Source: Microscilla marina ATCC 23134 (GTDB taxonomy: Bacteria; Bacteroidota; Bacteroidia; Cytophagales; Microscillaceae). Taken from it: 64,000 nucleotides of DNA. Position numbers and translations under genes: made by a program. Under the pieces are notes generated by a model. It did not search any database and had not been told where the DNA came from. It saw only the letters and a program-made list of their open reading frames with translations. Of the stretch, positions 2,457 through 37,706 are shown piece after piece. Positions within the stretch are counted from its first letter, which is position 1; every line of letters begins with the position of its first letter. Location of the stretch: the NCBI RefSeq assembly GCF_000169175.1, contig NZ_AAWS01000011.1, forward strand, positions 175,039-239,038, written 5' to 3'.

Positions 2457-2948
2457 TTATTTTCTGAATAATCTGCTTTGTGCAGTTGATAAGTCAAATC
2501 TTTCACTTTTGTTAGTGATATTTTTCAGAAGCTTTGAGGTAGTACGACTGTCAGGCACGATTAGCCTCCCAAACACTCCTTTCTCCTTCCAAAACTTCAC
2601 CAGCACATCAAAATCTCCATCACTACTTACCAAGATAAAGTGTTTGTGATCTTGCTCATAGTAATGCTGGGCAGCACTGAGAACTAGGTGGGTATCTACG
2701 TTTCACTTGATGGAATGCTTATTTCTAGTAATGGTTTTGAAGTATAGGGTATAGCCTAATGCTTTTAATCTATTGTAAAATCACTCGTATTCTGACAAGT
2801 AGCCCAAAAACATACACACTTTATCGGCTTTGAACTTATCTTTCAACAAGGTCATAAACTTTGCCCAATCCAGCAACCAACCACAAGATTGAATACCAAG
2901 GTGTACATTTTGGGTGTCTATAAAAACAACTGTGTGGAATGGGCTCAT
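2457..2948 (-). CDS. NYN/LabA-like PIN-fold nuclease, two in-frame TGAs
   Basis: Reading TGA as sense gives a 163-aa protein from ATG 2948 to TAA 2457. It matches the NYN (LabA/DUF88) family: an early V-V-F-I-D-T-Q-N-V with the first catalytic Asp, a central K-[TGA]-N-V-D-T-H-L-V-L, and a late V-S-S-D-G-D-F segment. In this family the central motif is normally K-G-N-V-D, so the TGA at codon 82 (2705-2703) stands on glycine. The other TGA, codon 56, follows S-E-Y-E. NYN proteins are PIN-fold metal-dependent RNases. The gene lies 30 bp after the replication-relaxation gene in an operon of mobile-element functions. Under the standard code it would appear as three useless fragments. Confidence 0.75.
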
Positions 2949-2978
2949 CTAGGTACTCGGTCATAAGTAAAATTTGAA

Positions 2979-3962
2979 CTAGAAGTTCGCTAAGTTATGT
3001 AAATCACTTACTTGTAGGTTTGCGGTATTTTGAGTGGCTTTTTGTGGTATGTATAAATTAGTGATAGATCAAGCAAGGTTCTGCCAGTTGTTACCAAATT
3101 CAATTGGATTGCTCATTACTTTATCCAATGTTTTGAATAGGAAATAGCTTTTAACATGTGTAAATATGGTATCATCTTGTATCCTCTTAACCGTAGCTTT
3201 CATCAACGACTCTTTTTCAAAAACGCACAGTACTTGATGTCCATAAGATACACCATAAGCATCACTAATGCTTCATAGTTCGATAGCTTCTACGTGTTTT
3301 TTTAGTTGCTCCAAGGTTCTAAGCGTGTTCTTACCATTGTACATTTCAAGTGTATATAGACTCGCTTTCTTTCCTGTTGTATCAATTGTCTGGAATACCA
3401 TATCAGGCACTAAAAAAGCTTTGTTTTTGATAGCAAATTTATTTCTGGAGCGAAGATTTTTATCACGGCGATTGTTTCATAGTGTATCAAAATAACGACT
3501 ACAATAATGAACTTCTAGGTTGTTTTGTGCTGCCCGTAGGTTCATCGCTATTTCACAGTTTACGGTGTTTTTGCGATGGAAATAGTCTTGGTAAAACAGC
3601 GTAGCTGTTCATGCTGGTAGTTTAACTTCGTTAGGTAGTAACCCCAGGTGATGAATCAACGCTTGTTTACCGTATTTGGTCAAGTAATGAATATTTTCAA
3701 GCTTACCTAGTTGAGGAATCGCCCCAAACGTTTGATGTGCTACCAGTGGCTGGTTTTTTTTCAATCCTTGCCTCAACTCACGCAATGCTTCGTTGATGTT
3801 TTTGGTTTTACTCATAATTCCTAAATCTACCATTTGCGAGGCGGTCAGGAATTTGTATTTGGCAAGCGCCGACAAAATATTAGATTGGGCAAAAGTAACG
3901 GTGCGAAAGGCGGGCGTTTTGGCTGTAGGCATATTTGTTTGATAATGTAAATGATTATGCAT
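2979..3962 (-). CDS. Replication-relaxation family protein with four in-frame TGAs
   Basis: Read with TGA as sense this is 327 aa ending at TAG. The N-terminal winged-helix region (I-L-S-A-L-A-K-Y-K-F-L-T-A-S-Q-M-V) fits the replication-relaxation (Replic_Relax) family, which accompanies plasmid and ICE mobilisation genes. It aligns along its length with the TGA-free paralogue at 27694. TGA codons are 118 (paralogue Asn), 162 (paralogue Gly in F-D-K-V-G-N-N-R), 230 (paralogue Gly in E-A-I-E-I-G-S) and 298 near the C-terminus. The ATG at 3962 overlaps the ATPase stop (ATGCATAA), suggesting coupling; an ATG at 3932 is an alternative start. There is no frameshift and no internal TAA or TAG, which argues against a decayed gene. 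Confidence 0.78.
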
Positions 3963-5518
3963 TACTATCAATGCCATATTTAGGTTTAGGGGCTGCGTTT
4001 TGTTGCCTTAGCTCTTCATAATCTTGTGGTGGTTTTTTAGCGATATAAGAGCCAGCCTCTCAAGTAAGATGTTTTTTGAGGTCTTTTTTATCAGCCGCTT
4101 TTAGATGATATTTTTTCTTTTGGCGAAGCAAAAAGGCTGGTGGTTTAAACATACGTGGGGCAGCCCCTCCTGCACGTAAGAAGAACCCGTGTTTTTTTAA
4201 GTTGTCAAACTCCTTGGTTTTGATCCCTAGTTCTTTTGCCATGTGCTGTAAGGTGGTAGGAGAGTTAGCCCCTACAAACTTTACACTGGTATTAGAAAGA
4301 ATCGTTTCTTTGAGTTTTTTACTGGTGATCTGGGCGAGATTTTGGTTTGCTAATATCAAGTGTAATCCATATTTTCTGGATTCAGCAAGAATACGCTCAA
4401 TGCTGGTGGCTGATAAATAGTTTTGGCATTCATCGATAAATAAAAAGGTTGGTTTCCTTTTGGCTTTGCTCTGATACACCCTCCTTAATGCAATACTTTG
4501 CAACAATGAAATAATAAGCCTACCAAAGAGTTGAGATGTTTCGGTACCCATTTTTCATTGTGCCAGGTTAAATATGATCACTTTCCCCGAATCCACGGCT
4601 TCTTCCAAGTTAATTGTGCTTTTACCTTCAGTTAGATGATAAAAGGTTTGGGAGTTGAGTAGACTTTGTAATTTGGTATAGATAGATTGCTTCGTGATAC
4701 GGTAAGTAGAATTAGTCGTAAAGGCTGATTTAAAAAACTCCTGATGCCTTGGGTGAGGGCTTTGCTGTCAAAGTTGTACTAAATCAGTGTTTAACTCATC
4801 ATCCATAAAACGCTGAAGCTCACTGAGACTACTGTTTCACTTTCTGAGTAGTACTGCAATACAAGGCACAAGCAATGCTTCCATTTGCAAAGACAGCGTG
4901 CTACCTACAATCATTTCTTGAAAGATGCCAGCCAGCTCTTGGCTAAGTAAGTCAATCATCGCATCTCTTTCTTCAGGGTTTTTGATATTATTTGGTAACT
5001 CCAATGGGTTAATCACTGGGGTATACCCTGACTCCATATAAGGGTCAATGTAAAGAACTCTTTCTCTACCGCCTTCTTTCTGACCATTGAGCTGGAAACT
5101 AAACATTTCTTCTGCCAAGTCTCCGTGTGGGTCTAGTAAGAGTAAGCTATATTGATGGTTTTTATGGCTCTGCTTTTGGAGTGTGTAGAAAAGCACCTTC
5201 ATTAACTCACTTTTTCCGCTACCACTTCTTCCAGTGATATACGTATGTTTTTTAAGCGCCGTTAACGGAATACCTAATGCTTTGGGGGTAGAAGGGATTC
5301 CTACTATTTTTTTTAACCAGGCAATTATTAGAAAGAATGGCATCGTATAGGTGGAGGTAATGAAACAGCAAAAGCCAGATATTTACAGCAGGTATATAAG
5401 TTGTTTTACTCTGGACTGTTTCATCAGGTATTAGACAAGGGGAGCTTAGAGTCCACCAAGTGGTATTTATCTGTTTTTTTGTTAGGCGGTCATTGTCTAA
5501 GCAAAAGTGAGGTTTCAC
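3955..5518 (-). CDS. T4CP/VirD4-like conjugative ATPase with four in-frame TGAs
   Basis: The core, ATG 5343 to TAA 3955, is 462 codons with Walker A (G-R-S-G-S-G-K-S-E) near residue 40 and Walker B (F-L-F-I-D-E-C-Q-N-Y) near residue 295. It is a type IV secretion coupling-type DNA pump, paralogous to the protein at 25835. TGA codons (numbered from 5343) are 169 (paralogue E/G), 192 (paralogue Gly in K-L-G-L-Q-S-P), 263 (paralogue Gly in L-S-Q-G-K-I-G) and 428. A better start may be GTG 5518, which has AAGGAG nine bases upstream; its frame reaches the core only across a run of eight A near 5310, so one extra A (an indel or slippage site) is likely there. It lacks the N-terminal domain of the other copy. 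Operon with the genes on either side. Confidence 0.75.
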
Positions 5519-5626: not shown

Positions 5627-6703
5627 TTACGTACTTGTACCCTTATTGTTGCTTACTGCCGTCAGTTTACGTAATAGCTGATTTCTGTAAGAGTGTGGGT
5701 TGGTTATTTCCAGAGAAGGCAAAGTAGCGTGCTTTGTCTTTTTTGATTCCTTAACATCAACAGATATGCTTTGTTTAGGGCGAACTTTACGAAGCACTAT
5801 TTTTTTGTAATCGTCTTTGATTCGCTTCTCCAGTATTTGCTCCACACTATCGCCATAAAAGCAATTGATGTGGGTAAGGAACTCTCCAAGATCAAAGGAC
5901 ACAAGGGTTGGATTGGTTAAATAACGAGTAAGCTGATGTTTTTCGCAGAGCTGTTTTACCTGCTGGTAAATTTCTACTCTTAATCTAAATTTATCTAAAG
6001 AAACCGCCCTTATCAAGTCGAATAACCCTTGTTTGACATTCTTTTGCATTCGGTCATCTCTGCCAGTGATTTGGTTCCGAATCTGAACAAATTGTTGTCC
6101 CTGAGTTTCTACCTGTTGCATTCTTTCGCTGTATGAACTTCCCCCTTTCAGACTATCCCCCTTATTAAAATGTGTAGGGGGAACACCTTCTTCTTTCTTT
6201 ACTCTTGTTTCTGTTATTCTATTATCTTTTTTCTGGTATCTTATTACTGTGGTCGCTTGGTTGTCGTGTGATGTTTGGTTGCTTCTTGCTTGCTCCCTGT
6301 TAGCAGGTCATTTGATGCCTGTTTCCTGTCCGTTTGGTAGTCACTCGTACAAATAAGGAGCAATGATTTCGTTGGTTTGCAGGCGGTAAACATTGATTCA
6401 TTTCATTCCCGCCTGTTTGTCGGATTTGATCAGCATACCATACTTGATTAGTCCTTGAATGGCTCTGCTGAGTTTCTTTTTTTCTGCTTCAGGCAGTCCA
6501 AAAACAGGGTAATCATTATGCGATAATTTGAATTCCCCTTGTACCAAACCCTCAGGACTTGGCTGAGGGAGTTGCCAGGTTCTTTGGGCACCTAGTAGCA
6601 GAATTGCCAACCATAATGGTTTCTCTAAAAGTAACCTAAACACAGGATGGTGATCCTGATGAATAACTTTGATAAAGTGGTGCATTATTAGGTTTGTTAT
6701 CAA
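5627..6703 (-). CDS. Winged-helix replication-type protein with three in-frame TGAs
   Basis: Three TGAs at codons 102, 121 and 132 split this into pieces under the standard code; with TGA as sense it is one 358-aa protein ending at TAA. The first 120 residues (L-A-I-L-L-L-G-A-Q-R-T-W, then E-K-K-K-L-S-R-A-I-Q-G-L-I-K-Y-G-M-L) look like the winged helix of phage or plasmid replication initiators. A low-complexity polar linker and a helical C-terminus rich in K/R follow. The TGA contexts M-K-[TGA]-I-N-V-Y-R-L and Y-L-Y-E-[TGA]-L-P-N-G suit glycine turns. It lies about 110 bp upstream of the ATPase gene on the same strand and could be its replication partner. The exact family is not recognised; ATG 6685 is an alternative start. 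Confidence 0.6.
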
Positions 6704-6733
6704 GTAAAGTAGGTGGTGATGTATTTATTTTAT

Positions 6734-7402
6734 TTACTCATATATCACTATACAGTGAGGCAACATTGCTTCAATACGGGCTATTTCTTCCTTTGAGATA
6801 GGGTTCATAAAAAGATTCAAAATTTTGAGTTCAGTGAGTGCCTCTATCTCTGATGGTAGTTGTGTAAATTCGTTATTACCAAGATCAAGGTACCTAAGTT
6901 GAGAGAGCTTGCTTATCTCAGGCGGAATGCTGTCCATAAGGTTCTCAAATAAATCAAGGGCTTGTAATCTTTTAAGTTGTAAAATCTCCATAGGGAACGA
7001 TTTGAACTGATTGTATCAAATACCAAGGGTATGTAGTTTGGTAAGTTGTGTTATTTCGGATGGTAAACTGCTTATATTATTACCAAATAGTTCCAGACTT
7101 TGAATTTGGGTAAGCTGAGCTACTTCACTGGGTAAGCTTGTCAGATTTTTAAGTGACAGGTCTATCTCTGGTGAGTTGAATTGGGCAATGTGCCTGACGG
7201 TAACTTCTTCAATACTAACCTCAGTATCTTGCAAGCTTGATAATAAGGAAGCTACTACCTCTTTTTTTGAGTTTACTAACTTTTGGTTGAGTCATTCTGT
7301 TATTGTCAGAGCTTCTGCTACTTTTACTGGATTGGTGCTATCCAAGAGTTGTTGGATATTTGACGGCAATTCTTCATCATCTACTATGGGTATTTCTATC
7401 AT
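6734..7402 (-). CDS. Leucine-rich repeat protein with two in-frame TGAs
   Basis: From ATG 7402 to TAA 6734 this is 222 aa when TGA is sense. The N-terminal 75 residues are helical; about five leucine-rich repeats follow with the pattern L-x-x-L-P-x-E-I-x-x-L-x-x-L-x-x-L-x-L. TGA codon 37 falls in I-T-E-[TGA]-L-N-Q-K. Codon 129 falls in L-G-I-[TGA]-Y-N-Q-F, the variable position before the conserved Asn of the repeat, where small residues are common. Under the standard code the repeat array would be cut in the middle of a repeat, yet repeats continue in phase after the TGA. It is a protein-binding protein of unknown target; no signal peptide or membrane segment is seen. Confidence 0.72.
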
Positions 7403-7655: not shown

Positions 7656-7934
7656 TTAAACATCAGGTGAAGCCTTTAAATAAGCTTCTCGCTTTTTGCC
7701 AAACTCTTCAAGAGCAAGTAAATGGTTTTCAATAGATTTAGTAGTAGGTAACTCAGGTTTGGTTAAGTTGAGTAGTTCACAAAGCGGTTCGGGAGACTTG
7801 TGTAGTTTGCGGATACTAAGGAAACTGTTGCCAAAAACAACTGAAACATCAGTAGTGAATTGCTCAAAAGCGGTTCGGTCAAGCTTCTTTTTTTTGTTTT
7901 TGACTATTCTAAAAAAGAGGGGTTGTGTGGGGTG
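7656..7934 (-). CDS. Open frame without a clear start after the recombinase
   Basis: A minus-strand frame of 92 codons between TAA codons, ending just before the terminator at 7598-7628. It encodes a polar, helical sequence (K-L-D-R-T-A-F-E-Q-F, then H-L-L-A-L-E-E-F-G-K-K-R-E-A-Y). It has no ATG, GTG or TTG in frame. Its beginning overlaps the recombinase 3' end in another frame, near a run of T and of A, so it may be a frame-shifted tail of that gene or a gene whose start was lost. There is no TGA in it. The terminator position supports transcription. Confidence 0.3.
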   Translation of the reverse strand, partial: HPTQPLFFRIVKNKKKKLDRTAFEQFTTDVSVVFGNSFLSIRKLHKSPEPLCELLNLTKPELPTTKSIENHLLALEEFGKKREAYLKASPDV

Positions 7935-9538
7935 TTAAACATTAGGTCATATAAGGCGTTTCAGGCGGTTCGGAAAGATTGTTGGGGAGTATAAAATATT
8001 TGTCCTCAAAAAAACACTTGAACAAACATTTTTTTGATTTCGGGATTTGATAGGTGCCAGATATTTTTGACTGAAGTGAATATTTTTTTGGTAATTGTAA
8101 GCAACCCAATCAAACTTTTGGCAGAATGAGTTCACACATTGGTAATTTCTTGTTGGTATTTTAATTTTTTCTGATTGAGCTCTTCCCGTTCTTTTTCCAG
8201 TTTTTCTATCAAATGAAAACTAGACGAATTGACTAATATTTGTTGTATTCTATCCATCTTGCATTTGATGCTATTGATTTGTTTTTCTTTATCTTTGATC
8301 CAATCAGCCTGAATTTGACCTTTTTGTTCTCGAAATGTTTGTAAAATAATTGAAAATATTTCTCGGACTTGTTCTGGTACTGTAATTCTTTCAAGGAACT
8401 CTTGAAACTCAGCAGTAAGTTTTTTACGACCTCTTTGGAATCTGTCTTTATCTTTCTTGTTTGGGCATCCATAGTAAGGGTATTTAGCATTACGCCCCTT
8501 TGACCAGTAACCTGTAAATTGCCTTTTACAATAACCACAATGCAAATAGTTTCTTAAGGGGAAATCTGGGTTAAACTTGATATGAGATTTCCCTATTAGA
8601 GTAGATTGATTAATTCTGTCAAGTATTTTTTGAGCAGTTTCCAATGAAATAATTGGTTGGTGTTTGGCACGAAATGGTTCTTTAAATCATCGTGATGGTC
8701 TATAAAAATACCCTGCATAAAAGTAGATTGTTCTGGGTTTAAATAATATACTAACTATTGTATAGTGAATACGCCCTGTTGTGTTACGTGGGCTATTTGA
8801 TGTTATGTTTTTCTCTTTAAGGTACCTGTATACATCACTATGGTTACTTAATATCCCATTTGCATACATTTCCAATGCTTCTTTAATATAAGTTGCTCTA
8901 GGTTCTGTTGGGATCAAAATCGTGCTTTTGCCTTCTTTCTGTTTTTTATAGCCTTTCGGTACGCCAGCAAAAATCCAATATCCCTCTTTAAACCTTGTGC
9001 GTTTACCATTCATAAATTTGAGTCTAAGGTTTCTTTTTTCAAAAGCAGTAAAGGTGTATAAAATGTTTTCTTGTAGCATTCCAGCACTGGTATTGGGGTC
9101 TACTGGATACATTACATAAACAATCTCGACACCAGATTCTCTGATTTTTTGTGTAACAATGAGTGATTCAGCTAAATTATCGTTTCTGGATAGTCTGGAA
9201 TTATCTACGCACACAAAATGAGTAATCCACGGGGTATCTCATATTTTTTTTGGAATTGGTTCAACGTTTTTGCGCCTAGCATTTTTCTTTAAGAATTTTT
9301 GTTGTTTTTTTAGTATATCCATTGCTTCATCCAAGCCTTCACGGTCAAATGTCCCCCCTGATACTCATTTATCTTTAATGATTTTAAAAATAGATACATT
9401 GTTTCTTTCGCATCGTTCTACACACATTTTTTCCTGGCTCTCCAGTCCAAAGTTTTCTGTTGCTTGGCGCATGGTACTTACACGACAGTAAATTAAAGCT
9501 GCCTGGTGTTTAGGATGGTTGTTTTTTAATTGATTCAT
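7904..9538 (-). CDS. Large serine recombinase with six in-frame TGAs
   Basis: ATG 9538 to TAG 7904 gives 544 aa when TGA is sense. Domains: N-terminal resolvase (Y-C-R-V-S with the catalytic Ser at about 21; S-R-L-S-R-N-D near 112), recombinase domain (R-A-T-Y-I-K-E-A-L), zinc ribbon (C-G-Y-C-K-R then C-P-N), coiled coil, and the usual C-terminal F-F-[TGA]-G-Q-I-F-Y...S-F-R-T. TGA codons are 58, 100, 284, 469, 511 and 526. Codon 58 occupies the invariant glycine of D-x-G-V-S-G, and 511 the glycine before G-Q in the tail. Counted by hand, about 6 of 29 glycines are TGA. Stopping at codon 469 would remove the family C-terminus, which is plainly present downstream. It probably integrates or excises the surrounding element. 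Confidence 0.88.
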
Positions 9539-9550: not shown

Positions 9551-9994
9551 TTATCAAAATAAATGAAGAACGGGCAATGATGCTTTACTAGTGCTTGAAA
9601 GATAGTTTACATAAACTATCTCAACACCTTCCTGCTTGATTTGCTAGATTAGACTCACTTGTGTTAGCAAATCATTTCTGGATAATCTAGCTGCATCTAC
9701 GCAAACCAAATGAGTAATCCAAGGCTAACCATTCAAAGTTAGTAGCATATTTTGTTGGGTATTTCTTTGTAAAGACTGCTGCTGTTGGTTGAGCATCTTG
9801 AGTACTTGTCCAAGTCATTTACGATGGAGAGTGGCTCAGGCAATACCTATGTCTTTAATGACTTTGGCTACGGGAATTTGTCGCTGATGACACCAGTCTA
9901 AACACTTGTTTTCCTGCCACTCCGTACCATACAGTTGATCTGGTTTGCCACGACAATATACCAAGGCAGCCTGATTTTTTTTAGCTTGAATCAT
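9551..9994 (-). pseudogene. Decayed second serine recombinase (N-terminal part)
   Basis: This resembles the first 150 residues of the neighbouring recombinase: V-I-K-D-I-G-I-A-[TGA]-A-T-L-H-R-K-[TGA]-L-G-Q, then P-W-I-T-H-L-V-C-V-D-A-A-R-L-S-R-N-D, and E-G-V-E-I-V-Y-V. It contains two in-frame TAG codons and ends abruptly, and the catalytic RVS motif has become R-G-K, so it is a true pseudogene. The two TGAs in the resolvase region still fall on family glycines (SG-x-T and R-x-G-L), so they were probably inherited from a functional ancestor, whereas the TAGs are the inactivating changes. Confidence 0.75.
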
Positions 9995-10054
9995 TAGAGT
10001 GTTATAATAGAATAAATTCATATGGGATGCTTTAAAGGGTGTTTAAAAGTTCCC

Positions 10055-10246
10055 TTAAAGCTTGTCACGGAGTCTATCAAATCATAGGTCTCAACTCAAG
10101 TATTTTTCGATCACCGTTTGAGCTAGGTACTCCAATAAGGTACGTAAATGAAGTATCTCTTCTTTGGTGAGATGCGAAAACCTGGCTCATAATAGCTCCT
10201 TGATTTCAGCTAAAGAAATCACTTGACTTTCTTGTGTTTTCATCAT
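10055..10246 (-). CDS. 63-aa protein with three in-frame TGAs
   Basis: ATG 10246 to TAA 10055 encodes 63 residues if TGA is sense: an amphipathic helical protein (S-L-A-E-I-K-E-L-L-[TGA]-A-R-F then L-T-K-E-E-I-L-H-L-R-T-L-L-E-Y-L) with TGAs at codons 20, 52 and 55. The TGA contexts (L-L-[TGA]-A, L-S-[TGA]-D-L-[TGA]-F) suit glycine between helices. It lies about 60 bp upstream of the decayed recombinase on the same strand and may be a small helper of it. No family is recognised. It would be missed by standard-code gene calling. Confidence 0.5.
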
Positions 10247-10421: not shown

Positions 10422-11648
10422 TTATATAACTCGCTCCCAAGCCAGACTTTTCAGCAAAGCATCATAATGTTTCGTAAATGCCGTATAACTTACTTTTTTC
10501 ATTTCCAGCGCAATATCCTGAATGGTGCGGTACTCTCCAGTATAAAAATATTCCTGCATCAGATAATAATAAGCACGAATGGGTTGGTCGGTCAAGATCA
10601 TTGTTTGGTTGTAAATTTGGGTTTGTAAATGCTGAAAATCTTGTTTATGCTTGTAAAACCTGTGTTGAATTAAATCCCGCAGGACATCAGAAGAAGCCTT
10701 GGTATAAAAACTTAAGCCCATTTGCTGGGCATAGGGCATAAATCTATGGGTGACATTGAGGTCATAATCCGATTTTTCAATGTAGCGTACATACTCAAAC
10801 CAGGTTTCTCTGAAAAAATCCAAAACCAGTTGATTGAGAATACGGGCTGAGGTGCTCTGAACAGCTTCCTGATGGGCAAAAAACAGTTTAAGCAGACGAG
10901 GCGCTTTGGATAAGGCTGGAAAAGAAGGGCGCTGAGGCATATACTCCTTACAATGTGTAGGCTGTAGGTTGGCAAAAGCAGTCAGTGAAGTGGGAGTAGT
11001 CTTTGCATCAAATTTTTCCTGCAACCATTGTTGGGCTTGTTGTACAGGCAGATTGTTACTATCAGCGTGAATAATCACCAGAGTTTTTTGAGATTGAATG
11101 ATTTGCTTGTGACACCTCAGTATACTTTTTAAGTTAATACCACTTGTTTTTTTTGTATCAATGGAATCTTTCAAATAGTACTTTTCAATCCCTTGAATAT
11201 CAAAACCGTAAGCTTCTTTTTGAAAGATTTCTTCCTGTTGAAAAATGTAGAGTTCCTGACTTCGCTCTTCAGGGGTAATCACCAAGGGGGTATGCAAAGC
11301 TTCCCACAATACTTGTAATATTGTAAGGGCGTGTGGTTTATGAACCTCAATATTAAAACTGATAAAAGCTCCCCCCGTAAATCCGTTTAACTCCCCAATC
11401 CCAGCCAATGCCTCTTTGATGGTTTTTCCCATTTGAGGTAGCCTTCTGTCAGGGTTTAACAGCAGGTGCTCCAAAAGATGCACCTGATGAAATTGAAAAT
11501 TGGTATTGTAATAAAAGATGATATGTGCATAAAAAGTCTCTATTGATTTGTCAATAGTAATGATGTCTCATTTTGGAAAAGTGTATAACATTTTGATGAA
11601 TCTATACGCATTAAAATAATCTGGTTTACATATTGGTATCTTACTCAT
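10422..11648 (-). CDS. M16-type zinc peptidase, one in-frame TGA
   Basis: With TGA as sense the gene runs from ATG 11648 to TAA 10422, 408 aa. The inverted zinc motif H-L-L-E-H of the M16 (insulinase/pitrilysin) family lies near residue 53, with G-F-T-G-G-A-F and further Glu residues downstream as expected. Under the standard code the protein would start at a GTG inside this active-site motif, with no room for the preceding beta strands. The TGA is codon 27, in F-P-K-[TGA]-D-I-I-T-I-D, a turn before the first strand. No signal peptide is seen. It is divergent from the gene at 11678, with only 29 bp between the two starts. Single M16 half-proteins usually act in pairs; no partner is visible. 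Confidence 0.68.
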
Positions 11649-11677: not shown

Positions 11678-12418
11678 ATGAAAACTCCGCTCAACCTTTG
11701 AACTAATTTGGAAACAAAACTTCAAACTGATCATCCCCAACTGGCTCATTTACTAAGGAAAATTCAAGCCACTCACTTTCAGCTATTAAGTAGCCTTCAA
11801 CCTACTACTACTCAACAAATTGTGGAACTCATCAGCCAATACTCTTACCTGGATCAAAAAAGTAATGATGATATTTTACGCATTGATGAGGAGGGTAAAA
11901 AAGCAGGGTTAGCCCTTCCTCAATTAAGTGTAAGGTATAAACAACAGGTGGTCGGTTATGCGACTTTGAAAGCCATTGCTTTGCCCTTGAAAGCGCCAAG
12001 CTCTATTCCTGCCTATATTTTTGAGAAAACCACGGTGACAGACACTCTTTCCCCCATCGGACAAACTGCCAGAGGTTTGTTTAAGGAGACAACTGGGTAT
12101 TCCTTAGGCACATTCCTCTCAGAAAATATCATCAAGCTCAATGAAATACTCACTAATACAACCTTGCCTACCATTGCCTGGGTAACCACCCAATTAGATA
12201 AAAAACATCTTTCCCCAGTGCTTACTTATTCGTTGAATCAACAAAATAAAATTATTTCGGTGCAACAATTTGCCATCCAGTACCCTAATTTGTTGGATGT
12301 ATTATATCCTCAGTATGGAGGTGAGATAGCTACCCAAAACACTCCCCAAAGAGAACACTGGATGGTATACAATGAAGCTACCGTGAAACTATTGGCAAAT
12401 TTTCAGACCAACCCTTAG
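11678..12418 (+). CDS. Unknown cytoplasmic protein, one in-frame TGA
   Basis: A standard reading would use TTG 11708; reading TGA as sense recovers an ATG at 11678 (M-K-T-P-L-N-L-[TGA]-T-N-L), giving 246 aa to TAG. The mixed alpha/beta sequence has no recognised motif. A segment with V-V-G-Y-A-T-L-K and later P-T-I-A-W-V-T-T-Q may suggest a lyase-like or regulatory fold, but I do not assign it. It is divergently arranged with the M16 gene, so the 29 bp between their start codons should hold both promoters or share leader sequence. Confidence 0.6.
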
Positions 12419-13649: not shown

Positions 13650-14786
13650 TTAACGGATGGAGGCAAAAGCCCTTGCCTCAATATTTTTTGCAGCATTGAC
13701 ATCTGCGTTTAGTTTTGTGCCACAAGATGTACACACAAATTTAGCTTGTGTTTTCCTGCTTTCTTTGTCTTTGTGCCCACACTCAGAGCATACCTGGGAA
13801 GTATGCTTTGGGTTTACCTTGACAAAAGTTCGCCCGTGCCATTTCGATTTGTACTCCAACTTATCCAAAAACATAGAAGGCGCAGCATCCAGAATGGAGC
13901 GATTAAGACCTGATTTGGCTTTGACGTTCTTTCCAGGTGCTTCGGTGGTTCCTTTGGCTCTACCAGTCATATTGCGAACTTGGAGGTTTTCAACCGCAAT
14001 AGAGCCGTATTTGAGAATTAAGCCTGTGCTGACTTTGTGTTGAAAATCGTTGCGAATACGGGCAATTTTAGCCTGAAGTTTGGCAAGTTTTCGGGCTTGC
14101 TTCTTGAAGTTGCTCCCGCCTTTCTTTTTGCGGGAAAGGCTTCGTTGTTCAATCCTGAGTTTGTTTTGGTAGTGCTGAAAAAGACGCGGATTGGCAATGT
14201 GTTCGCCACCTGAAGTGGTTATAAAATGTTCTATCCCCCAATCCAGTCCCACAGTTTGGTTATTGCTGGGAAGTGGTTGGGTGGTCGTTGAAAACATAAT
14301 AGAAATATAGAAACCATCCGATTCTTTGATGATGGTTGCTCGCTTAAGTTTGGCTTTCTTAGGGATTTCTCGTGAGTAGAAGGTTTTGACCTCACCCAAC
14401 TTTGGAAGAACAAAACGACCAGCCTCACAGTTGTCACGGGTGACTGACTTTAGAGTGATGGAGTTGTATTTGCCTTTTTTCGCCCATTTGGGAAAGCCAC
14501 CACCTTTAAAGAAAGATTGATAGGCTTTCTCAAGCCTTTGAAGCACATCCTGGAGGCTTTGAGAAGGGACATCTTTGATCCATTCAACATCCTTGAGGGT
14601 TTTGAGCTCCTTATCCAAATCAAAGCGAGACAAGTTAACCCCATAAGCTTTGTAGGCGTATTGTTTGGTCTCCAAAGCAAGGTTGTACACAAACCGACAA
14701 GCACCTACCCAACTACTCAGTTGCCTGGTTTGGGTAGCTGATAAATTTCGGAGCTTGTATTTGTATGTCTTAACTACTTGGAGCAT
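13650..14786 (-). CDS. tnpB: TnpB, OrfB-type RNA-guided nuclease of IS605
   Basis: I chose ATG 14786 (M-L-Q-V-V-K-T-Y-K-Y-K-L-R), the usual TnpB beginning; the open frame extends upstream through IS sequence without meaning. The protein has 378 aa. RuvC-like residues are visible: V-G-L-D-W-G-I near residue 175, the E in V-E-N-L-Q, and the final D-V-N-A-A-K-N. The zinc ribbon C-S-E-C-G-H...C-T-S-C-G-T precedes the last motif. TnpB proteins are omega-RNA-guided DNA endonucleases that help IS605 elements persist. All three acidic positions and four cysteines are present, so it looks intact. Stop TAA. Confidence 0.9.
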   Translation of the reverse strand: MLQVVKTYKYKLRNLSATQTRQLSSWVGACRFVYNLALETKQYAYKAYGVNLSRFDLDKELKTLKDVEWIKDVPSQSLQDVLQRLEKAYQSFFKGGGFPKWAKKGKYNSITLKSVTRDNCEAGRFVLPKLGEVKTFYSREIPKKAKLKRATIIKESDGFYISIMFSTTTQPLPSNNQTVGLDWGIEHFITTSGGEHIANPRLFQHYQNKLRIEQRSLSRKKKGGSNFKKQARKLAKLQAKIARIRNDFQHKVSTGLILKYGSIAVENLQVRNMTGRAKGTTEAPGKNVKAKSGLNRSILDAAPSMFLDKLEYKSKWHGRTFVKVNPKHTSQVCSECGHKDKESRKTQAKFVCTSCGTKLNADVNAAKNIEARAFASIR

Positions 14787-14843
14787 AATGCAATATACAA
14801 AGAAAATATTATTTATCTGACAAATAAATACTATATTTAAGCT

Positions 14844-15242
14844 ATGGAAAAACGCTGGAAAAGCTCTAAAAATAGTGTCTACAACCTTGGCTATCATATC
14901 ATTTGGTGTCCAAAATACCGCAGGAAAGTCCTGACTCAGGAAATACAAAAAAGGCTCAAAGAGCTTTTGCTTTCAAAGGCTAAAGATTTGGGCATTGAAA
15001 TAGAAACAATGGAGGTTATGAAAGACCATGTACATCTTTTCATCAAAGCGAAGCCAATAGATGCTCCTCATTTCATTATTGGGCAACTTAAGGGCTACAC
15101 TAGTCGCCATTTGAGGCAAGAATTTCCCCAACTAAAAAGTAGACTTCCAACACTTTGGACTAGATCATATTATGTGGAATCGGTAGGGCATATTTCAGAA
15201 AAAAACATCAAAAAATATATTGAAAACCAAAAAATGGTTTGA
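14844..15242 (+). CDS. tnpA: TnpA, IS200/IS605 Y1 transposase
   Basis: A 132-aa HUH single-strand transposase. The HUH motif H-V-H-L-F lies near residue 66 and the catalytic tyrosine lies in the later helix region after W-T-R-S-Y-Y. The N-terminus (Y-H-I-I-W-C-P-K-Y-R) is typical. It ends K-Y-I-E-N-Q-K-M-V-TGA; proteins of this family normally end at about this point, and what follows is the IS end, so this TGA acts as a real stop. That contrasts with the neighbouring genes where TGA is sense. It is divergent from tnpB. Confidence 0.93.
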   Translation: MEKRWKSSKNSVYNLGYHIIWCPKYRRKVLTQEIQKRLKELLLSKAKDLGIEIETMEVMKDHVHLFIKAKPIDAPHFIIGQLKGYTSRHLRQEFPQLKSRLPTLWTRSYYVESVGHISEKNIKKYIENQKMV

Positions 15243-16215: not shown

Positions 16216-18684
16216 TTAAGCATTCAAGGCAGGAAGCTGTTCTATTTGGCTCATCATTGCTTCTAACTCTATATTTTCCTGTTTTCTATCTTCTTTCTCG
16301 TAACGTTCTCTAAAATTTCTTTGGGTCATTGCCTCGGTTTTAGCCCAAGGTGAACCAAAAAAAGAGGCTTGATCGGGACTTTTAACTCGTTGTGAAAAAT
16401 GTTGGATGGCCAGGGGATTAAACCTTGCCTGGGGCGTTTGAAAAGTGGCATCGGTAAGAAAAGACCCAAAAGTAGCGATGATTGGCGATTCTTGGTGAGG
16501 CGTTAGAGAGGAAGAGGGTTGTAAAATATTTTTGAGTAGTGGATCATTGATATGATTTACCAAATGTGGTTGCTGATGATAAGTGAGTAATGCCTGATGT
16601 AAAGTATCAATGGACTTGTTCAAAATTTTGATCTCTTCTACGGAACTATACATCAAGGTATAGTGAAAATGCTTCATTAAGGTATGTAAAGCTGGATGTT
16701 CCTGAGGGGTAATTTCTCTCCCTGCGCCAAAAAATAATTGCTGGTAGTGGCTGGTATCTTGCAAACTCTGCCCACCTGAATCTTGTAAAGCCTGCATCGT
16801 TGCCATCAGTTTACTTTGGGTCATTTGCCCCTGAAAACGTACTAAAGCTTGTTGTAACTCGGTTTGTAATGGCAATGGATCAGGTAAACTCTGGGCGATA
16901 TGTTGTTGTCCTGTTTGAGTTTCATAAGCTTTCAATTGTTCTCGTGGACGTTGGTTGCTTTTAAAAGAAGTCTTACGAAAAAAAGCTTTTCTATTGATAT
17001 GACTTGTTTGTTTCATTAATTGAGGCAAGGTGGGCAGTTTGGCGGACTTAAGATAGTTTACTGCTTTTTGATAACCGACAATGACCTCTCCTTGCAAACC
17101 TCCCTGTGTATGATTGGTCAGCGAAGGTCCACGAACTTCTCCCGTATATAAATTGATGCGTACTGGATCGTATACCTGTCCAGTGGAATCTTGAAAAGCA
17201 ATACAAAGTTCTTCTCCTTCTACTTTGGTGCGATTCAATTGAAACTCAAAATCCTGACTGACTTTACCCAAAACCTCCTTTGTAAGATAAGTCATATACA
17301 TTTGCTTGGCGGTTTCCAGCGTTGTTTCTTTGCTGCTTTCATATAACTGTTGGTTGAGCAGTCCAGCGATTTTTTGTTGGACTGCACGTTGTTTTGCAAA
17401 CTGAGGAGCCACACGTTGTAACAGTTTACTCTGACCATTTTTACGTCGGGTTTGTTCTAACTGAAAGGCATACAAAGATGTTCTGAAAGCCTCCAAAATG
17501 GTCGTATCTTTAATATTGCCAAACCAATGTTTTTGTATTTGCTCCCAAACCTCCCTATTTAACTGAGGCTTTGAGGGGTCATTAGATTCAAAGAAAATAA
17601 TAGAAGGAAACATCGCCAGATAATCCATTGGTTGCTCTACATTCATCTGTTGGTATTCTTGGGCTGAACCCAAACTGATATTTGCCAGTTGATCATCGTG
17701 GGCATTGATTCCTGGGATGGACTTCCATACCTGAGGGCTACTAAGTTGAGCTAATGTTACCGAGGTTTCCCCAGAAAACTCCTGCATAGTAGCTTGGTGT
17801 ATTTCTAATGAAGGGCGGGTAAGCCCTAGTTGTTTTTCGTAGTGTTGGAATCATTCGGTAACCCTCAGCAAATCATTTTGTAGTTGCACTGGCAAACCTG
17901 TTAAAACATCTACTTGATTACTTTCTTGAAGGCTTATTACAAAAGAAAGTTTTGCGTAAGCTTCTACGCTCATCCCTTGGGTCGTCAGCTTGCTTTCAAT
18001 ACTTGGGTTTTGTTGGATCATAGCTGCACGATACTGTTGGAATCTTTCGTCGAACACCTGGGGATAGGTTTCGGGCGAAAGTTGTTGTGCTAAACGATGA
18101 AACTCTTTTGTCATTTGCTGATCTTGTGTCTGTTCTATATTTTTCATTTGTTGCATTTGTTCGGAGTTGCCTTGGCTTGTTTCGATCTGAGGAATAATTT
18201 GAGCAGTTTTTCACTTCAATATCTGTTTGTTTTGGTCTTGTAGTTGTTGCTTTTGGGAGCGTTTTAAGGAGATTTTTACTTTATCTAAAAACTCACCAGG
18301 AGACACATATTTATTCTCAGGGTTTTGAAAAAAATCATCTATAAGCTGAGGCAGTAGGGCAAGGCTACTGCCAGGCAACGCTTTATTTTTAGCAAGCTTA
18401 CTAAGCAAGTTTGTTAAAAACTCTTTACTAAGGATTCCGTTATCTTTCCGATGCTCTTTCGCCAACAATATCCCTTGCCTAATACTTGTTTGCAAATGCT
18501 GAACTTCTTGGGTACTCATTTTTTTGCTTTGTACAAAGTGCAACAACTGTTTTCATAAACCTTTGTCCAGGGTGTGGTCGATTCAATAGTTTGTAGAGTC
18601 TTGGTGTTGCTTCAATAATACATCCTTTCCTTGTTCGTTGGTATCCTTTACAGAGGAAGAATGAAACATCTCTCCTTGATTCAT
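16216..18684 (-). CDS. Large unknown protein with four in-frame TGAs
   Basis: Four TGAs (codons 34, 44, 158 and 278) split this into small frames under the standard code; with TGA as sense a single 822-aa protein runs from ATG 18684 to TAA 16216. Contexts are T-N-Y-[TGA]-I-D-H, K-G-L-[TGA]-K-Q-L-L, I-L-K-[TGA]-K-T-A-Q and V-T-E-[TGA]-F-Q-H-Y. The protein is helical and Gln-rich, with no signal peptide or membrane segment. The region near residues 440-530 (C-I-A-F-Q-D-S-T-G-Q-V-Y-D-P-V-R) looks like a small beta domain. No family is recognised; size and context would suit a plasmid mobilisation or structural protein. No frameshift or TAA/TAG occurs in about 2.5 kb, which is good evidence for function. 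Confidence 0.7.
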
Positions 18685-25834: not shown

Positions 25835-27688
25835 ATGAATACTAATAAAGTAAATACAGATGCTCCTGAGCACATCTTTTTTCAGCAAATACTTTCACAG
25901 CGATGGGAATGGATGCTTTCTTTAGATACTACTATTCGGTTAGGGTATACCAAAGCCGAATTTCTGAGCAATTTTATCTTCGAATGGATGGAAAAATGGG
26001 TGAGTTATATTGAGGCACAACGTGATCAAGTAGAGCGTTATTCTACTGAGTATGCTGTGTGGATGGAAAAGCGAGGCTTTACCTTCAAGGAGTATTTGAG
26101 TTTGTTCAGTGCTCGCATCGCCGCTGATGCCCACGACTGGTATCCTATTTTTGAAGTGTTGATGATCGATCAAGAGGAACATCGTAAAGCTCTTACACAA
26201 GGTTTTGATCCTACGGAAAAAGATTACCTGTTGCTGTTGTCACAACTAAATAATTGCCCACCTACTCATTTTTTTAACCGAGAGTTTCCCGCAGAAATTC
26301 CCCTAAATGAACTAGCAAAACATGCATATGTAGTAGGAAATACTGGTAGCGGAAAAAGTGAACTGATGAAATCACTCTTCTATCATTTGCAAAAACAAAC
26401 CTACACTACGGGAAACAAAGCCAGTTTGATTTTGATGGAACCACATGGAGAGTTGGCTCAAGATATGCGCGATTTTTACCTCAACAAAGAGCAACGCCAT
26501 CGTTTGATTTATATTGATCCATTTTATGAAGAAGGCTTTACCCCTGTGCTCAATCCTTTTGATATACCCAATGAGGAACGGCAAAATGAACCACTCATCG
26601 ATTTGTATAGTCAGAATATTGCCAAGGCATTTTCGGAACTGATTGAAGGCAGTAGCCTGTCTCCCCAAATGGAAGCGGTACTCATTCCTTGTATTGCCAC
26701 CTTATTGCGTAAAGAAGGGAGCAGCCTTGCGGAGTTGCAACGGTTTATGAACGATGAAGAAAACGATGATTTGATCAAACTTGGCTTGCAAAGCCCTAAT
26801 CCTATACACAAAAATTTATTCAAATCAGCTTTCAGAAAAGGATCGGGCTATCAAACTACCAAACAGTCTATTTATACAAAGCTGTTGAAGCTATTAGGCA
26901 CTACCACATTTTTTGAGTTTACCTGTGGGCGAAGTACTTTGGACCTAGCAAAAGCGACTGACGAGGGGAAAATTATCTTGTTCAATCTGTCGCAGGGTAA
27001 AATTGGGGAAGATAGCTCACAAGCTATTGGACGATTACTGATTGCCATGATTAAAAACGTAGCTCTACGAAGAGAGTATCAAGCCAAAAACGAACGAATC
27101 CCTACCTTTGTTTTTATCGACGAGTGCCAAAATTATCTCTCCCCTAGTATTGAAAAAATACTGACCGAAGCCCGAAAGTATAAGGTGTTCTTGTTGATGG
27201 CCAATCAGAACTTAGCCCAAATTGAAGATAGCCGTTTAAAAGATGCTATTTTTTCTAATACCAAAGTAAAAATAGCAGGAAGTAACTCTCCTAAAACCTT
27301 AAAAGTGATGGCGCAAGAAATGCAAACCTCCTTAGACATATTACAAGACATGCGTAAATATCATTTCTGTGCTAAGGTGGATGACTCTCCTGCATTTGTG
27401 TTTCGTTCACCCAGTTTTTTGGCTACCAATGAAGCCAAATTTTCATTGTCACACGCTGATCAAATGGGCTTGAAACAATACTTGCTTGACCAAGGGTATT
27501 ATCGTACCAAGGTATTATTGAAAAAAGAGGATGCGACAACAGAAGCTGCAAATAGTTCTGAAACCCCTACAAATAGCCAAGAACAACCTCCTCTACCCAA
27601 GTATTCGTTAAGAAAGAAAACAACAAATGGTGAAGGCAATGATCCTAATCCAGCCCCTAAATACTCATTCCGAAAATCAAAAAACTAA
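25835..27688 (+). CDS. T4CP/VirD4-like conjugative ATPase, TGA-free copy
   Basis: ATG 25835 is preferred; a TTG at 25706 would start inside the upstream inverted repeat. 617 aa. An N-terminal helical domain of about 150 residues, absent from the other copy, precedes the Walker A G-N-T-G-S-G-K-S-E near residue 170; L-I-L-M-E-P-H-G-E follows, and Walker B F-V-F-I-D-E-C-Q-N lies near 430. The C-terminus is a repetitive, basic tail (P-K-Y-S-L-R-K-K twice, with Pro/Asn linker). It probably couples DNA to a transfer apparatus. It forms an operon with the replication-relaxation gene 5 bp downstream. Comparison with 3955-5518 supplies the glycine identities of TGA codons there. Confidence 0.82.
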   Translation: MNTNKVNTDAPEHIFFQQILSQRWEWMLSLDTTIRLGYTKAEFLSNFIFEWMEKWVSYIEAQRDQVERYSTEYAVWMEKRGFTFKEYLSLFSARIAADAHDWYPIFEVLMIDQEEHRKALTQGFDPTEKDYLLLLSQLNNCPPTHFFNREFPAEIPLNELAKHAYVVGNTGSGKSELMKSLFYHLQKQTYTTGNKASLILMEPHGELAQDMRDFYLNKEQRHRLIYIDPFYEEGFTPVLNPFDIPNEERQNEPLIDLYSQNIAKAFSELIEGSSLSPQMEAVLIPCIATLLRKEGSSLAELQRFMNDEENDDLIKLGLQSPNPIHKNLFKSAFRKGSGYQTTKQSIYTKLLKLLGTTTFFEFTCGRSTLDLAKATDEGKIILFNLSQGKIGEDSSQAIGRLLIAMIKNVALRREYQAKNERIPTFVFIDECQNYLSPSIEKILTEARKYKVFLLMANQNLAQIEDSRLKDAIFSNTKVKIAGSNSPKTLKVMAQEMQTSLDILQDMRKYHFCAKVDDSPAFVFRSPSFLATNEAKFSLSHADQMGLKQYLLDQGYYRTKVLLKKEDATTEAANSSETPTNSQEQPPLPKYSLRKKTTNGEGNDPNPAPKYSFRKSKN

Positions 27689-27693: not shown

Positions 27694-28575
27694 ATGAACA
27701 ACATCAAAATAAAGAAGACGAAAAGTAATTACTACAAGGCTCTGACAGTATCGCAAACCAAGATTTTGGAATCACTGGCGATTTACAAGTTTCTGACCAG
27801 TTCGCAAATGGTGACCCTGGAGGTGATGACTCACGAAAAAAACATTAATACCCAAATTCGGTTTTTGCGGGGCTTGCCCAAACCACTAATGGACAGCGAA
27901 AATTTTGGCTCGATCCCCAAAATTGGGAGGTTAGAAAGCATTCATTTTTTGACCAAAAAAGGCAAACAGTTGTTGATTGAAGAGTTGGGTTACTCCCCAG
28001 AAGATATACGACTACCTACTAACAACAATTCGTTGTTTTATCAAGACTACTTCCACCGAAAATATACCATCGACTGCCATATCAGGGCAAGTAATTGGGC
28101 AAAGGAAAGTGGGATAGAAGTACTGTTTTTTGATCGCTATTTTGATAAGGTAGGCAACAACCGAATAGATAAAAATATGCGTGCTAAAACCAAGATCAAC
28201 CTTAAAAACAAACAATACCTCATTGCCGATGGGGTATTAATGATTTTACTACCTGATGGTGCACAAGAGCTGTATTGCTTAGAAATGTATGACGGTAAAG
28301 ATACGCTCCGCACCCTGAAACAACTCAAAAAACACGTAGAAGCCATTGAGATTGGAAGCGTGAGTGAGCAGTATGGGTTGCCCTATGCCCATCGGGTGCT
28401 CTGTGTTTTTGAGCATGAAGGTTTGCAAAAAGCAGTGATCAAACGAGCCAATCAGGAAAGCGAGTTTACTAACGTCAAAGAGTTCTTTTTGACCAAAACA
28501 CTGCAAAGTGTATTGGAGCAGCCTTTTGACAAGGGATGGGTGAATTTGTTGGGGGAGGAAGTGGGGGTGTATTGA
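27694..28575 (+). CDS. Replication-relaxation family protein, TGA-free copy
   Basis: 293 aa, ATG 27694. The N-terminal winged helix (I-L-E-S-L-A-I-Y-K-F-L-T-S-S-Q-M-V) and the C-terminal alpha/beta part (L-Y-C-L-E-M-Y-D-G-K-D-T-L-R) match the paralogue at 2979-3962. It ends at TGA 28573-28575. If UGA were glycine here, the frame would run 22 codons to a TAA inside a terminator stem; the paralogue also has a longer tail of this kind, so the true end is open. It probably acts with the adjacent ATPase in plasmid-type mobilisation. Confidence 0.78.
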   Translation: MNNIKIKKTKSNYYKALTVSQTKILESLAIYKFLTSSQMVTLEVMTHEKNINTQIRFLRGLPKPLMDSENFGSIPKIGRLESIHFLTKKGKQLLIEELGYSPEDIRLPTNNNSLFYQDYFHRKYTIDCHIRASNWAKESGIEVLFFDRYFDKVGNNRIDKNMRAKTKINLKNKQYLIADGVLMILLPDGAQELYCLEMYDGKDTLRTLKQLKKHVEAIEIGSVSEQYGLPYAHRVLCVFEHEGLQKAVIKRANQESEFTNVKEFFLTKTLQSVLEQPFDKGWVNLLGEEVGVY

Positions 28576-35940: not shown

Positions 35941-35972
35941 GTATAGGTTTACTCTTGCGATCTAATGATTAT

Positions 35973-36257: not shown

Positions 36258-37022
36258 ATGAAATTATTTTTGAAAATGGGGTTATTGGCTGTTGTTCTAC
36301 TCACTTTAGAGAGTTGTTCTAATACTGAAGTAGTAAAGCCAACCAAATCAAACCTACAAAACATCAACCATCAGTTAAAAAGTAGTGTACTTGATGCACA
36401 AACCTCTAACAATATACCGAGTAAATTTTATCGGGTAAACCCTGTTTATAAAGATGCTTATGTACATCTACGGCAGGGATATAATGAATGCTCTTGGGCC
36501 TCGTATGTCTTAACAACTGGAGCCATTGCAAGAGCCAAAGGCAGGGATTATGAAGTAACTCAAAATAAAATATCAAGAGTAAAAGATAAATGTAAAGAAA
36601 AATGCCATTCTTCACCGGACCCTTTTTGTGGTGCTTATATTACAGACTTGGAGTGGTTTGCCCAAACTTGGGATTACACAAACGTATCTAAGAACCGTGT
36701 CTCGTGCTCTAATAATGAAAGTGGTCGCTTTTCTATGGTAAAAAACATGCTTAATCATATAGAAACGAAACAAACACCATTTATTGCAATTGGGTCTACA
36801 TTTCAAAGTAATGGAAAGCGAATTGGGCATTATTATATTATATGGTCTATTGATTGGAAACGTGGAGGTAGAGGCTCTACTATATACTATACCGACCCTC
36901 TTGATGATGTAAAGCCTCATTTTAACAATCAGATTAAAGCAGAAAGTTTTTCTACATTCTTAGATAAAATGGCAGGTCACTACCCTTCACCAAAAGTTTA
37001 TAATGTACTGTTTTTGTGGTAA
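36258..37022 (+). CDS. Lipoprotein with papain-like (C39-type) peptidase fold
   Basis: 254 aa. The signal sequence is followed by a lipobox (L-E-S-C-S, Cys at about 20), so the mature protein is membrane-anchored. The segment Y-N-E-C-S-W-A-S-Y near residue 80 suits a papain-like nucleophile Cys with helix; G-H-Y-Y-I-I-W-S near 195 provides the His, and Y-Y-T-D-P near 215 the Asp. Several other Cys may form disulfides. The peptidase call is by motif order. It stands alone before a TGA-rich gene. Stop TAA; no TGA inside. Confidence 0.6.
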   Translation: MKLFLKMGLLAVVLLTLESCSNTEVVKPTKSNLQNINHQLKSSVLDAQTSNNIPSKFYRVNPVYKDAYVHLRQGYNECSWASYVLTTGAIARAKGRDYEVTQNKISRVKDKCKEKCHSSPDPFCGAYITDLEWFAQTWDYTNVSKNRVSCSNNESGRFSMVKNMLNHIETKQTPFIAIGSTFQSNGKRIGHYYIIWSIDWKRGGRGSTIYYTDPLDDVKPHFNNQIKAESFSTFLDKMAGHYPSPKVYNVLFLW

Positions 37023-37094
37023 TTAGCCTTTACAATACATTATGAATAGGCATATATATTATGCCTATTCCTTTTTATTATTTAAATTTCATCT

Positions 37095-37706
37095 ATGAAG
37101 AAAGTATGATTAATTATCGTGATGATAATAAGTTTATTCATGTGATATTTTATTGTGAAACTATTGAATGAGAAAGAACCAATTGAAGTAATTAAAACAG
37201 AAACAATGTTTATGGCACAACCTCTTACTGATGAACAATTTGAACAAGGCATATCAGAAAACGCTCACTTTGAATACACGACATACGCAGTACCTAAGCG
37301 ATGATTAGAGTTTTCACTACATCAACCAGTGAAAGTTGTTTGAAGAGAACAAAACAAACATTCAGTCATCTATGATAATGATAAAAAAGTGATCAAAATT
37401 TTTTCTTCGTGGTTGAGAGACCGTGAACCATTAGTGACCATTCAAAAATTAGACTCAACAAACAATGATTTCTTACCTTGTGACAACAATTATCATTCCT
37501 TACACCTCAATGAGTTTATTAATCAAGATACTGGAATAAAAAGTATTGAAAGTAATTGTGATAAAAATGAATACCATATCATGACTATTCGATGAGATAG
37601 CTTTCTTTATAAAGATGAAGCTTGGGGAGATGGTGCCCCTTTTGATATATGAGCAAACTCGTTCATTGATAGTAGCAGCATTAAGTTTTACGAAATAACT
37701 GAGTAA
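37095..37706 (+). CDS. Membrane-anchored protein with six in-frame TGAs
   Basis: ATG 37095 to TAA 37706, 203 codons that include TGA at codons 5, 17, 70, 83, 167 and 186; only four glycines use ordinary codons. The first 25 residues form a transmembrane or signal segment, M-K-K-V-[TGA]-L-I-I-V-M-I-I-S-L-F-M-[TGA]-Y-F-I-V, in which glycine suits both TGAs. The remaining soluble part has P-K-R-[TGA]-L-E-F-S, K-V-V-[TGA]-R-E, T-I-R-[TGA]-D-S-F and F-D-I-[TGA]-A-N. No family is recognised. A standard reading leaves only a 68-codon scrap. A terminator follows 26 bp after the TAA, supporting this end. Confidence 0.75.

Follow-up and report, generated by a model that had tools for sequence, protein, structure and literature searches.

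Stop-codon recoding in mobile DNA is best known from stop-recoded phages (crAss-like and others), whose genes are split into recoded and non-recoded ones; some of them read UGA as tryptophan. Such phages carry a suppressor tRNA, e.g., for UAG read as glutamine (available part of PMC10879173). UGA read as glycine, i.e., code 25, is the organism's code in Absconditabacteria (SR1) and Gracilibacteria, which have a tRNA-Gly(UCA) (available part of PMC8629427), and phages of these lineages often use the same code (excerpt of PMC10746230). In the literature searched (bioRxiv and most subscription papers not covered), no earlier description was found of integrated elements that read UGA as glycine in bacteria with the standard code. 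Mobile-element families were left out of the Codetta screen (PMC8629427), so modules of this kind may have escaped notice. The stretch considered here, called the window, comprises 64,000 nucleotides of Microscilla marina ATCC 23134 (NZ_AAWS01000011.1; G000:C11:175039-239038), at the end of a 239-kb contig of a genome of 9.77 Mb that is 98% complete. It carries a group of genes with in-frame TGA codons, among them a short VirD4/TrwB-type ATPase and a «rep-relax» gene (RR). Sequence comparison makes it very likely that UGA means glycine in these genes although the host reads UGA as stop. This reading belongs to one module of a mobile element, not to the organism as a whole; the same module is present in records of other phyla.

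The initial annotation had counted 41 TGAs in 14 frames. Thirty-five TGAs in 11 frames were verified (each frame longer than 150 codons and open to TAA or TAG), while 3 frames with 6 TGAs were not pinned down; short candidates for the latter are 10055-10246, 9725-10021 and 23173-23505, all on the minus strand. The eleven frames contain 35 TGA vs. 155 GGN in 4026 codons, and all four GGN codons are used beside TGA. Five of the ten frames scanned match Pfam families, each match spanning at least one TGA, and a sixth (2979-3977) is backed by its paralogue and relatives, not by Pfam. These six frames hold 20 family-supported TGAs out of 35. For the frames starting at 5627, 10422, 11678, 16216 and 37095 (15 TGAs), membership in the UGA = Gly set is unproven, because they have no family or only a weak family match, the last one being without homologue.

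The window ATPase (3955-5343, minus strand, 4 TGA) carries TrwB/TraG domains (Pfam TrwB_AAD_bind, E 2.8e-13; TraG-D_C, 5.8e-12) and a Walker A motif, i.e., it is of the VirD4/TrwB coupling type. Its family was aligned as 22 rows with TGA (written X) and 29 TGA-free rows, a few of the 22 being standard genes that were read through a genuine TGA stop. In columns conserved at 70% or more in the TGA-free rows, 63 of 65 TGA codons fall on Gly, one on Asp and one on Ser; Gly accounts for 15 of the 149 conserved columns. The RR alignment (window gene 2979-3977, minus strand, 4 TGA; 21 TGA rows, 9 TGA-free rows, conservation limit 60%) gives 33 of 37 TGA codons on Gly columns, the others on Arg (2), Lys (1) and Phe (1), with a Gly share of 8 in 88 conserved columns. 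Over 216 alignable TGA codons the log-odds are +222.2 for Gly, −176.2 for Ala, −195.5 for Ser and −394.5 for Trp. The 8 alignable TGAs of the window ATPase and RR give +14.2 for Gly, which exceeds chance, the next best residue being Asn (−2.7). Thus glycine, as proposed initially from motifs, is favoured more strongly than could be known at that stage, and the family alignments, named then as a possible refutation, do place Gly at the TGA columns.

Taken by locus, Gly scores best in 15 cases out of 21. The exceptions are L130 (Ala +0.7, Gly −3.3), L126, L112, L117, L119 and L131; the TGAs of the last four loci (1-2 aligned each) are probably true stops that were run over. In L129 several ATPase TGAs stand on Glu, Arg, Asp, Ser and Lys columns, and Gly is still the best residue with log-odds of −2.4; this locus was kept as Gly with low weight because its recombinase shows Gly motifs. 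The ATPase of Pseudoalteromonas rubra (P. rubra) is characterized by 16 TGA vs. 4 GGN, and all three Walker-A glycines are TGA (S!KT!S!KS). Two other genes of the window agree with the initial proposal, their alignments placing TGA on different glycines in different relatives: (i) the large serine recombinase (7904-9538, minus strand, 6 TGA; Pfam Resolvase, 1.2e-19) has TGA on the Gly of D-x-G-V/I-S-G, and its PSR-x-FKE aligns with PEW-G-VSR of a TGA-free relative; (ii) the D12-class adenine methyltransferase (21957-22775, plus strand, 2 TGA; Pfam MethyltransfD12, 5e-23) has TGA on Gly of FVGGG and in NQ-x-HY. Selenoprotein read-through, with UGA at Cys/Sec columns, was considered and rejected, the TGA columns being mostly Gly.

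The host, on the contrary, terminates at UGA. Its prfB (RF2) is present (488 bits), and the only TGA in it belongs to a CTT-TGA-C frameshift site after an AGGAGG run, which is the usual RF2 autoregulation; an absent or altered RF2, which the initial annotation had suggested looking for, is not observed. About 20 kb from the recoded pair, the window contains TGA-free paralogues of both genes on the plus strand, i.e., a standard-coded long ATPase (25835-27688) and a standard-coded RR (27694-28575), the first in-frame stop of the latter being TGA (28573-28575). Long frames without any TGA occur at 37860-43151 (1764 codons) and 50063-53767 (1235 codons). These single long frames were used as evidence instead of the 22 TGA-free frames of the codon comparison, whose zero TGA is no evidence because they were picked as TGA-free.

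The ratio of non-synonymous to synonymous substitution rates (dN/dS), calculated with TGA as Gly, is low. The values are (i) 0.057 for the ATPase and 0.093 for RR between P. rubra and P. prydzensis; (ii) 0.11 for the ATPase, 0.142 for the Rep3 initiator and 0.096 for RR in a Colwellia pair; (iii) 0.068 for the ATPase and 0.063 for RR between L121 and L122. Over the three pairs, ATPase, RR, Rep3 and a 558-aa gene thus range from 0.057 to 0.142. Other TGA-bearing frames give 0.062-0.226 (0.316 for one probably spurious frame), and TGA-free genes of the same pairs 0.059-0.204 (0.433 for a distant match with 36% identity). It must be noted that saturation of dS affected several genes, as well as most of what was compared in L116/L130 and L116/L126. 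The partners of TGA over all pairs, spurious frames included, are 84 TGA, 46 GGN and 39 other codons; in the L121/L122 ATPase there are 5 TGA/TGA and 5 TGA/GGN sites and no other partner. The low dN/dS and the TGA/GGN swaps indicate that the TGAs act largely as synonymous Gly codons and that the proteins matter.

The GTDB species collection was scanned with an ATPase profile; 128 relatives were confirmed among 211 stretches and the best 80 kept. A recoded ATPase is found in 16 of these 80 loci, with 1-15 in-frame TGAs and no TAA or TAG in the ATPase match (L176, with one TGA and 27% identity, was left out). According to record titles they belong to Saprospiraceae/Saprospirales (L114, L123, L129), Flavobacteriaceae (L115), Colwellia (L120, L127), Motiliproteus (L124), Pseudoalteromonas (L128, L132), other Gammaproteobacteria or Proteobacteria (L116, L118, L130), Sulfurimonas and Campylobacterales (L121, L122, L133) and a Neomarinimicrobiota metagenome-assembled genome (MAG; L126). 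MAG labels may be wrong; L120, L124 and L132 are named strains. Among 146 genomes around the window's own, only two matched, i.e., itself and one without TGA.

The trait has switched more than once, since 5 changes (no fewer than 4 of them forced) are required to account for the 16 TGA rows on a tree of 49 ATPase rows, against a mean of 13.6 after shuffling. Complete TGA-coded ATPases are short (430-490 aa; 561 in L114) and near TGA-free ones longer (562-671 aa in L102-L104, L107-L111, L113, L125 and L131). The standard-coded relatives form the same two-gene unit (46-53% identity to the window ATPase in L102, L103 and L107) but contain no TGA. Three Bacteroidota loci (the window, G152 and G155) hold TGA-coded and TGA-free copies 8-22 kb apart, start to start, and P0002 and P0007, whose contigs are both given as 64,146 bp, possibly represent another such case. 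Viral relatives amount to one weak match with the window ATPase and none with the recoded profile; plasmid and phage relatives are all below 60% identity. All 12 metagenome proteins aligned (of 120 listed) carry Trp at some Gly sites, thus gene callers mistranslate this family of elements.

Recoded and non-recoded genes stand together in one element. On the P. rubra contig, host genes (GroEL-like by eye) are followed by an integrase without TGA, the ATPase (16 TGA), RR (10), a TGA-free protein of 156 aa, a 558-aa protein with 14 TGA, a pair of XerC-like integrases with 9 and 8 TGA (the former identified by Pfam) and finally mostly TGA-free frames, including 317-aa, TraG-like and 276-aa genes. 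The Colwellia element has Rep3 (4 TGA), ATPase (8), RR (4) and a 145-aa protein (4), followed by a MobC-like gene, whose terminal TGA overlaps the start of the gene after it, and by a 328-aa gene and TraG, both TGA-free. In the elements, TGA-free frames of a DUF4102-type integrase, a relaxase-like gene and TraG adjoin the TGA-rich genes, the label «relaxase-like» (317-353-aa gene, one TGA in the L116 copy) being given by place only, with no Pfam match. Within an element, recoded and standard genes use codons alike, with r 0.90 in P. rubra, 0.91 in Motiliproteus, 0.89 in Colwellia and 0.93 in the window; between different elements r is 0.73-0.93 for most pairs. Against P. rubra host genes, r is 0.70 for the recoded and 0.61 for the standard element genes. 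Direct repeats gave no clear element boundaries, and no virion genes were found in the subset of element proteins searched. The two Pseudoalteromonas elements share, near the XerC-like genes, a non-coding stretch 96% identical over 145 bp (L132:16396-16540, L128:12413-12557), with cloverleaf-like inverted repeats; it is perhaps an att site, an origin or a regulatory RNA. As a decoder it was rejected: no UCA loop is visible by eye, and no copy was seen in the other loci compared. The Motiliproteus element carries a TGA-free cargo gene (L124:12675-14219, plus strand), by eye a putative defence protein of dCTP/dCMP-deaminase type.

A tRNA reading UGA, which the initial annotation had proposed to seek in the host genome, was not found there, 150 of 659 tRNA candidates being scored and 100 of 251 matches to a UCA pattern being listed and judged by eye (one tRNA-Pro-like site was missed by the family search). 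ARAGORN gave no UCA tRNA in the window, in 38 loci of its genome (36 of them stretches taken for their tRNAs), in 29 GTDB loci and in 18 extended flanks. Two cloverleaf scans of element loci and flanks, one allowing 4-bp anticodon stems and 8-nt loops, gave nothing convincing; the second reached at most 19.7, where real tRNAs score about 25 and reversed sequence 16.9. Rfam showed no decoder in the window and three loci. No decoder was recognized by eye from the matched letters among 117 UCA pattern matches in 5 genomes and 45 in 7 genomes. In P. rubra, where 150 of 266 candidates of the tRNA family search were scored, the 77 tRNAs called by ARAGORN include none with UCA. A Gly-type UCA pattern had 12 matches in 395 Bacteroidota genomes, and L584, the one opened, has no UCA tRNA by ARAGORN. 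Among gene families absent from 14 TGA-free loci, none occurs in more than 9 of 17 recoded loci, and the family reaching 9 is a 61-85-aa frame before the ATPase, itself containing TGA; this test is weak, many contigs being short.

In IMG/VR a tight tRNA-Gly(UCA) pattern matched 4 contigs. L540 and L567 are called tRNA by ARAGORN; L593 and L594 look like chance matches in GC-rich DNA. Among the matches listed, UCA tRNAs of viral contigs are mostly not Gly-like by their ends. L567 (IMGVR_UViG_3300036985_004989) has its own tRNA-Gly(UCA). One of its frames resembles a terminase (10 TGA; 25-40% identical to phage terminases), another of 714 aa contains 12 TGA and a collagen-like one 24, while frames elsewhere are TGA-free. 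Phages carrying this tRNA therefore exist, and helpers are conceivable.

Some odd tRNAs were observed on the way. In three host tRNA genes the anticodon region is interrupted by about 30-50 nt (G000:C9:123824-123947, plus; C45:67314-67431, plus; C16:132191-132292, minus; L047, L048 and L033, respectively). The inserts of L047 and L048 share a GGGTCAA...ACTTACTTC stretch, and that of L033 has CTGATGA...GAAA, hammerhead-like by eye. P. rubra has a 65-nt tRNA-like site (G146:C33:16533-16597, plus strand; L428) with a reduced anticodon arm (28.3 bits), followed by GCCA. None of these odd tRNAs shows a UCA loop by eye.

The facts ask for a decoder and none was found within the stretches examined, so it is placed outside them. 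The explanation tentatively preferred is that the TGA genes are a mobile-element module translated only when a UGA-reading tRNA-Gly arrives from another replicon, e.g., a recoding phage. The standard-coded part (integrase, relaxase-like gene, TraG, cargo) would work always, and would keep and move the element. The UGA-coded part (Rep3 initiator, short VirD4-type ATPase, RR, some recombinases and methyltransferases) would be silent in the host, and replication or DNA processing would be locked until the outside tRNA comes. A predicted helper replicon would bring tRNA-Gly(UCA) into the cell, where glycine would be inserted at UGA. A stronger form is possible though rather doubtful, namely a code lock, in which replication and DNA-processing genes written with UGA = Gly would be kept silent in all standard-code hosts and opened in trans by a foreign tRNA-Gly(UCA) as a mobilisation signal, with at least 4 on/off switches and a spread over several phyla. 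Several points weigh against the preferred explanation. None of the hosts showed a helper; the tight tRNA-Gly(UCA) pattern was matched by just four viral contigs, and the two confirmed by ARAGORN are not tied to hosts; and the tRNA searches scored the subsets given above, with patterns judged by eye. As carrier isolates show no UCA tRNA, the module may simply be silent in them. Moreover, L130 and L126 do not favour Gly, at 39 of 169 paired TGA sites the partner is not Gly, the L133 ATPase match is in three pieces split over frames, and the RR matches of six loci cross 1-3 TAA/TAG (gene ends in L120 and L121).

A somewhat unlikely alternative places the decoder in the element or host, as an odd tRNA-Gly(UCA) (split, permuted or intron-bearing) or as an element protein altering a host tRNA or RF2, so that UGA would be Gly in the host itself. 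Purifying selection would fit translation in the same cells, and the odd tRNAs do exist, but they have no UCA loop by eye, ARAGORN, Rfam and the two cloverleaf scans yielded nothing convincing, and no gene family is specific to recoded loci beyond the 9 of 17 of the weak test. The alike codon usage of recoded and standard genes points the same way only weakly, since values between elements are nearly as high. It is quite improbable that the module works only after transfer into cells that read UGA as Gly throughout their genome (Gracilibacteria/Absconditabacteria, class JAEDAM01), the standard-code host being a mere carrier. The failure to find a decoder in standard-code hosts, the code 25 of the phages mentioned above and the distribution of TGA (absent from integrase, relaxase-like gene and TraG, present in Rep3) would agree with it; but 349 of 379 Patescibacteria genomes (share using UGA = Gly not determined) match only distantly, with a best identity of 33% and one TGA place among the matches listed, and the record titles of the 80 GTDB loci kept name no such lineage.

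The remaining alternatives have very little probability. Decayed genes, contamination or assembly error might account for a broken recombinase fragment (9593-9988), the split L133 ATPase and the one TAA held by each of the G147 and G151 matches, upstream of the frames used. The absence of TAA/TAG from the ATPase matches of all 16 TGA loci and the pair comparisons make decay very improbable, and in P. rubra and Motiliproteus the module shares one contig with ordinary TGA-free genes. Another residue (Trp, Sec or mixed read-through) could be imagined from the non-Gly partners at paired sites, but the log-odds for Trp and the TGAs at Walker-A and further invariant glycines leave it hardly any chance. 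A genome-wide UGA = Gly code in this Bacteroidota, implied initially from the many TGA frames of the window, is refuted in the main and practically negligible: the prfB frameshift site is intact, the TGA-free RR paralogue ends at TGA, frames of 1764 and 1235 codons lack TGA and no UCA tRNA was found in the subset covered. As RF2 is intact and no UCA tRNA was found among the candidates covered, the glycine columns alone speaking for it, this is not the reassigned code of a Bacteroidota genome.

Concerning the RR gene, its identification with replication-relaxation proteins is not borne out: 2979-3977 matches no Pfam family at E 1e-3. The AlphaFold2 model (mean predicted local distance difference test, pLDDT, 82.9) predicts a winged helix at residues 16-115 and a weakly restriction-nuclease-like domain, the matches to that fold being only weak. 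Two further frames of the minus strand have family support, i.e., an NYN-domain protein (2457-2948, 2 TGA; Pfam NYN, E 1.1e-16 across the TGAs) and a leucine-rich-repeat protein (6734-7402, 2 TGA; Pfam LRR_14, 4.8e-18). The serine recombinase exists in the window's genome as one copy and the broken fragment (9593-9988, minus strand; G000:C11:184631-185026; 2 TGA and 2 TAG). The frames of unproven membership encode (i) a protein with 3 TGA and a weak PHROG 9640 match, 1.2e-4 (5627-6685, minus); (ii) two proteins of unknown function with 1 TGA each near the N terminus (10422-11648, minus; 11678-12418, plus); (iii) an 822-aa protein of unknown function with 4 TGA (16216-18684, minus); (iv) an isolated frame (37095-37706, plus) with 6 TGA and only 4 GGN, which, if real, would be a recoded gene beyond the cluster. 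A homologue search with the latter gave 48 candidates, none scored. A TnpB-like transposase frame (13650-15110, minus strand, by eye) has one TGA upstream of its likely start. A relative of the methyltransferase, 46% identical and with 6 TGA, occurs in L109 (4196-5056, minus strand), where the ATPase is free of TGA; recoded genes may thus also occur alone.

Two codes are found side by side in one genome, and this in named strains (P. rubra S2471, Colwellia sp. 1_MG-2023 and Motiliproteus sp. MSK22-1). With one gene family switching repeatedly, laboratory experiments could test how stop-codon reassignment arises and what it is for. If the code lock is true, a foreign suppressor tRNA is a signal for mobilisation.

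The comparison with the known systems leads to the following. Like code 25 of Absconditabacteria and Gracilibacteria, the module uses UGA for glycine beside GGN codons; unlike it, this is not the code of an organism but that of a module whose hosts keep RF2 and stop at UGA. Stop-recoded phages are similar as mobile elements with their own stop-codon reading in standard-code hosts; here, on the contrary, UGA stands for Gly, the genes are plasmid-like and no tRNA was found in the stretches examined. Code-25 phages of Absconditabacteria and Gracilibacteria have in common with the module TGA-rich genes and UGA = Gly (excerpt of PMC10746230); they share the code of their host, whereas the present elements differ from theirs.

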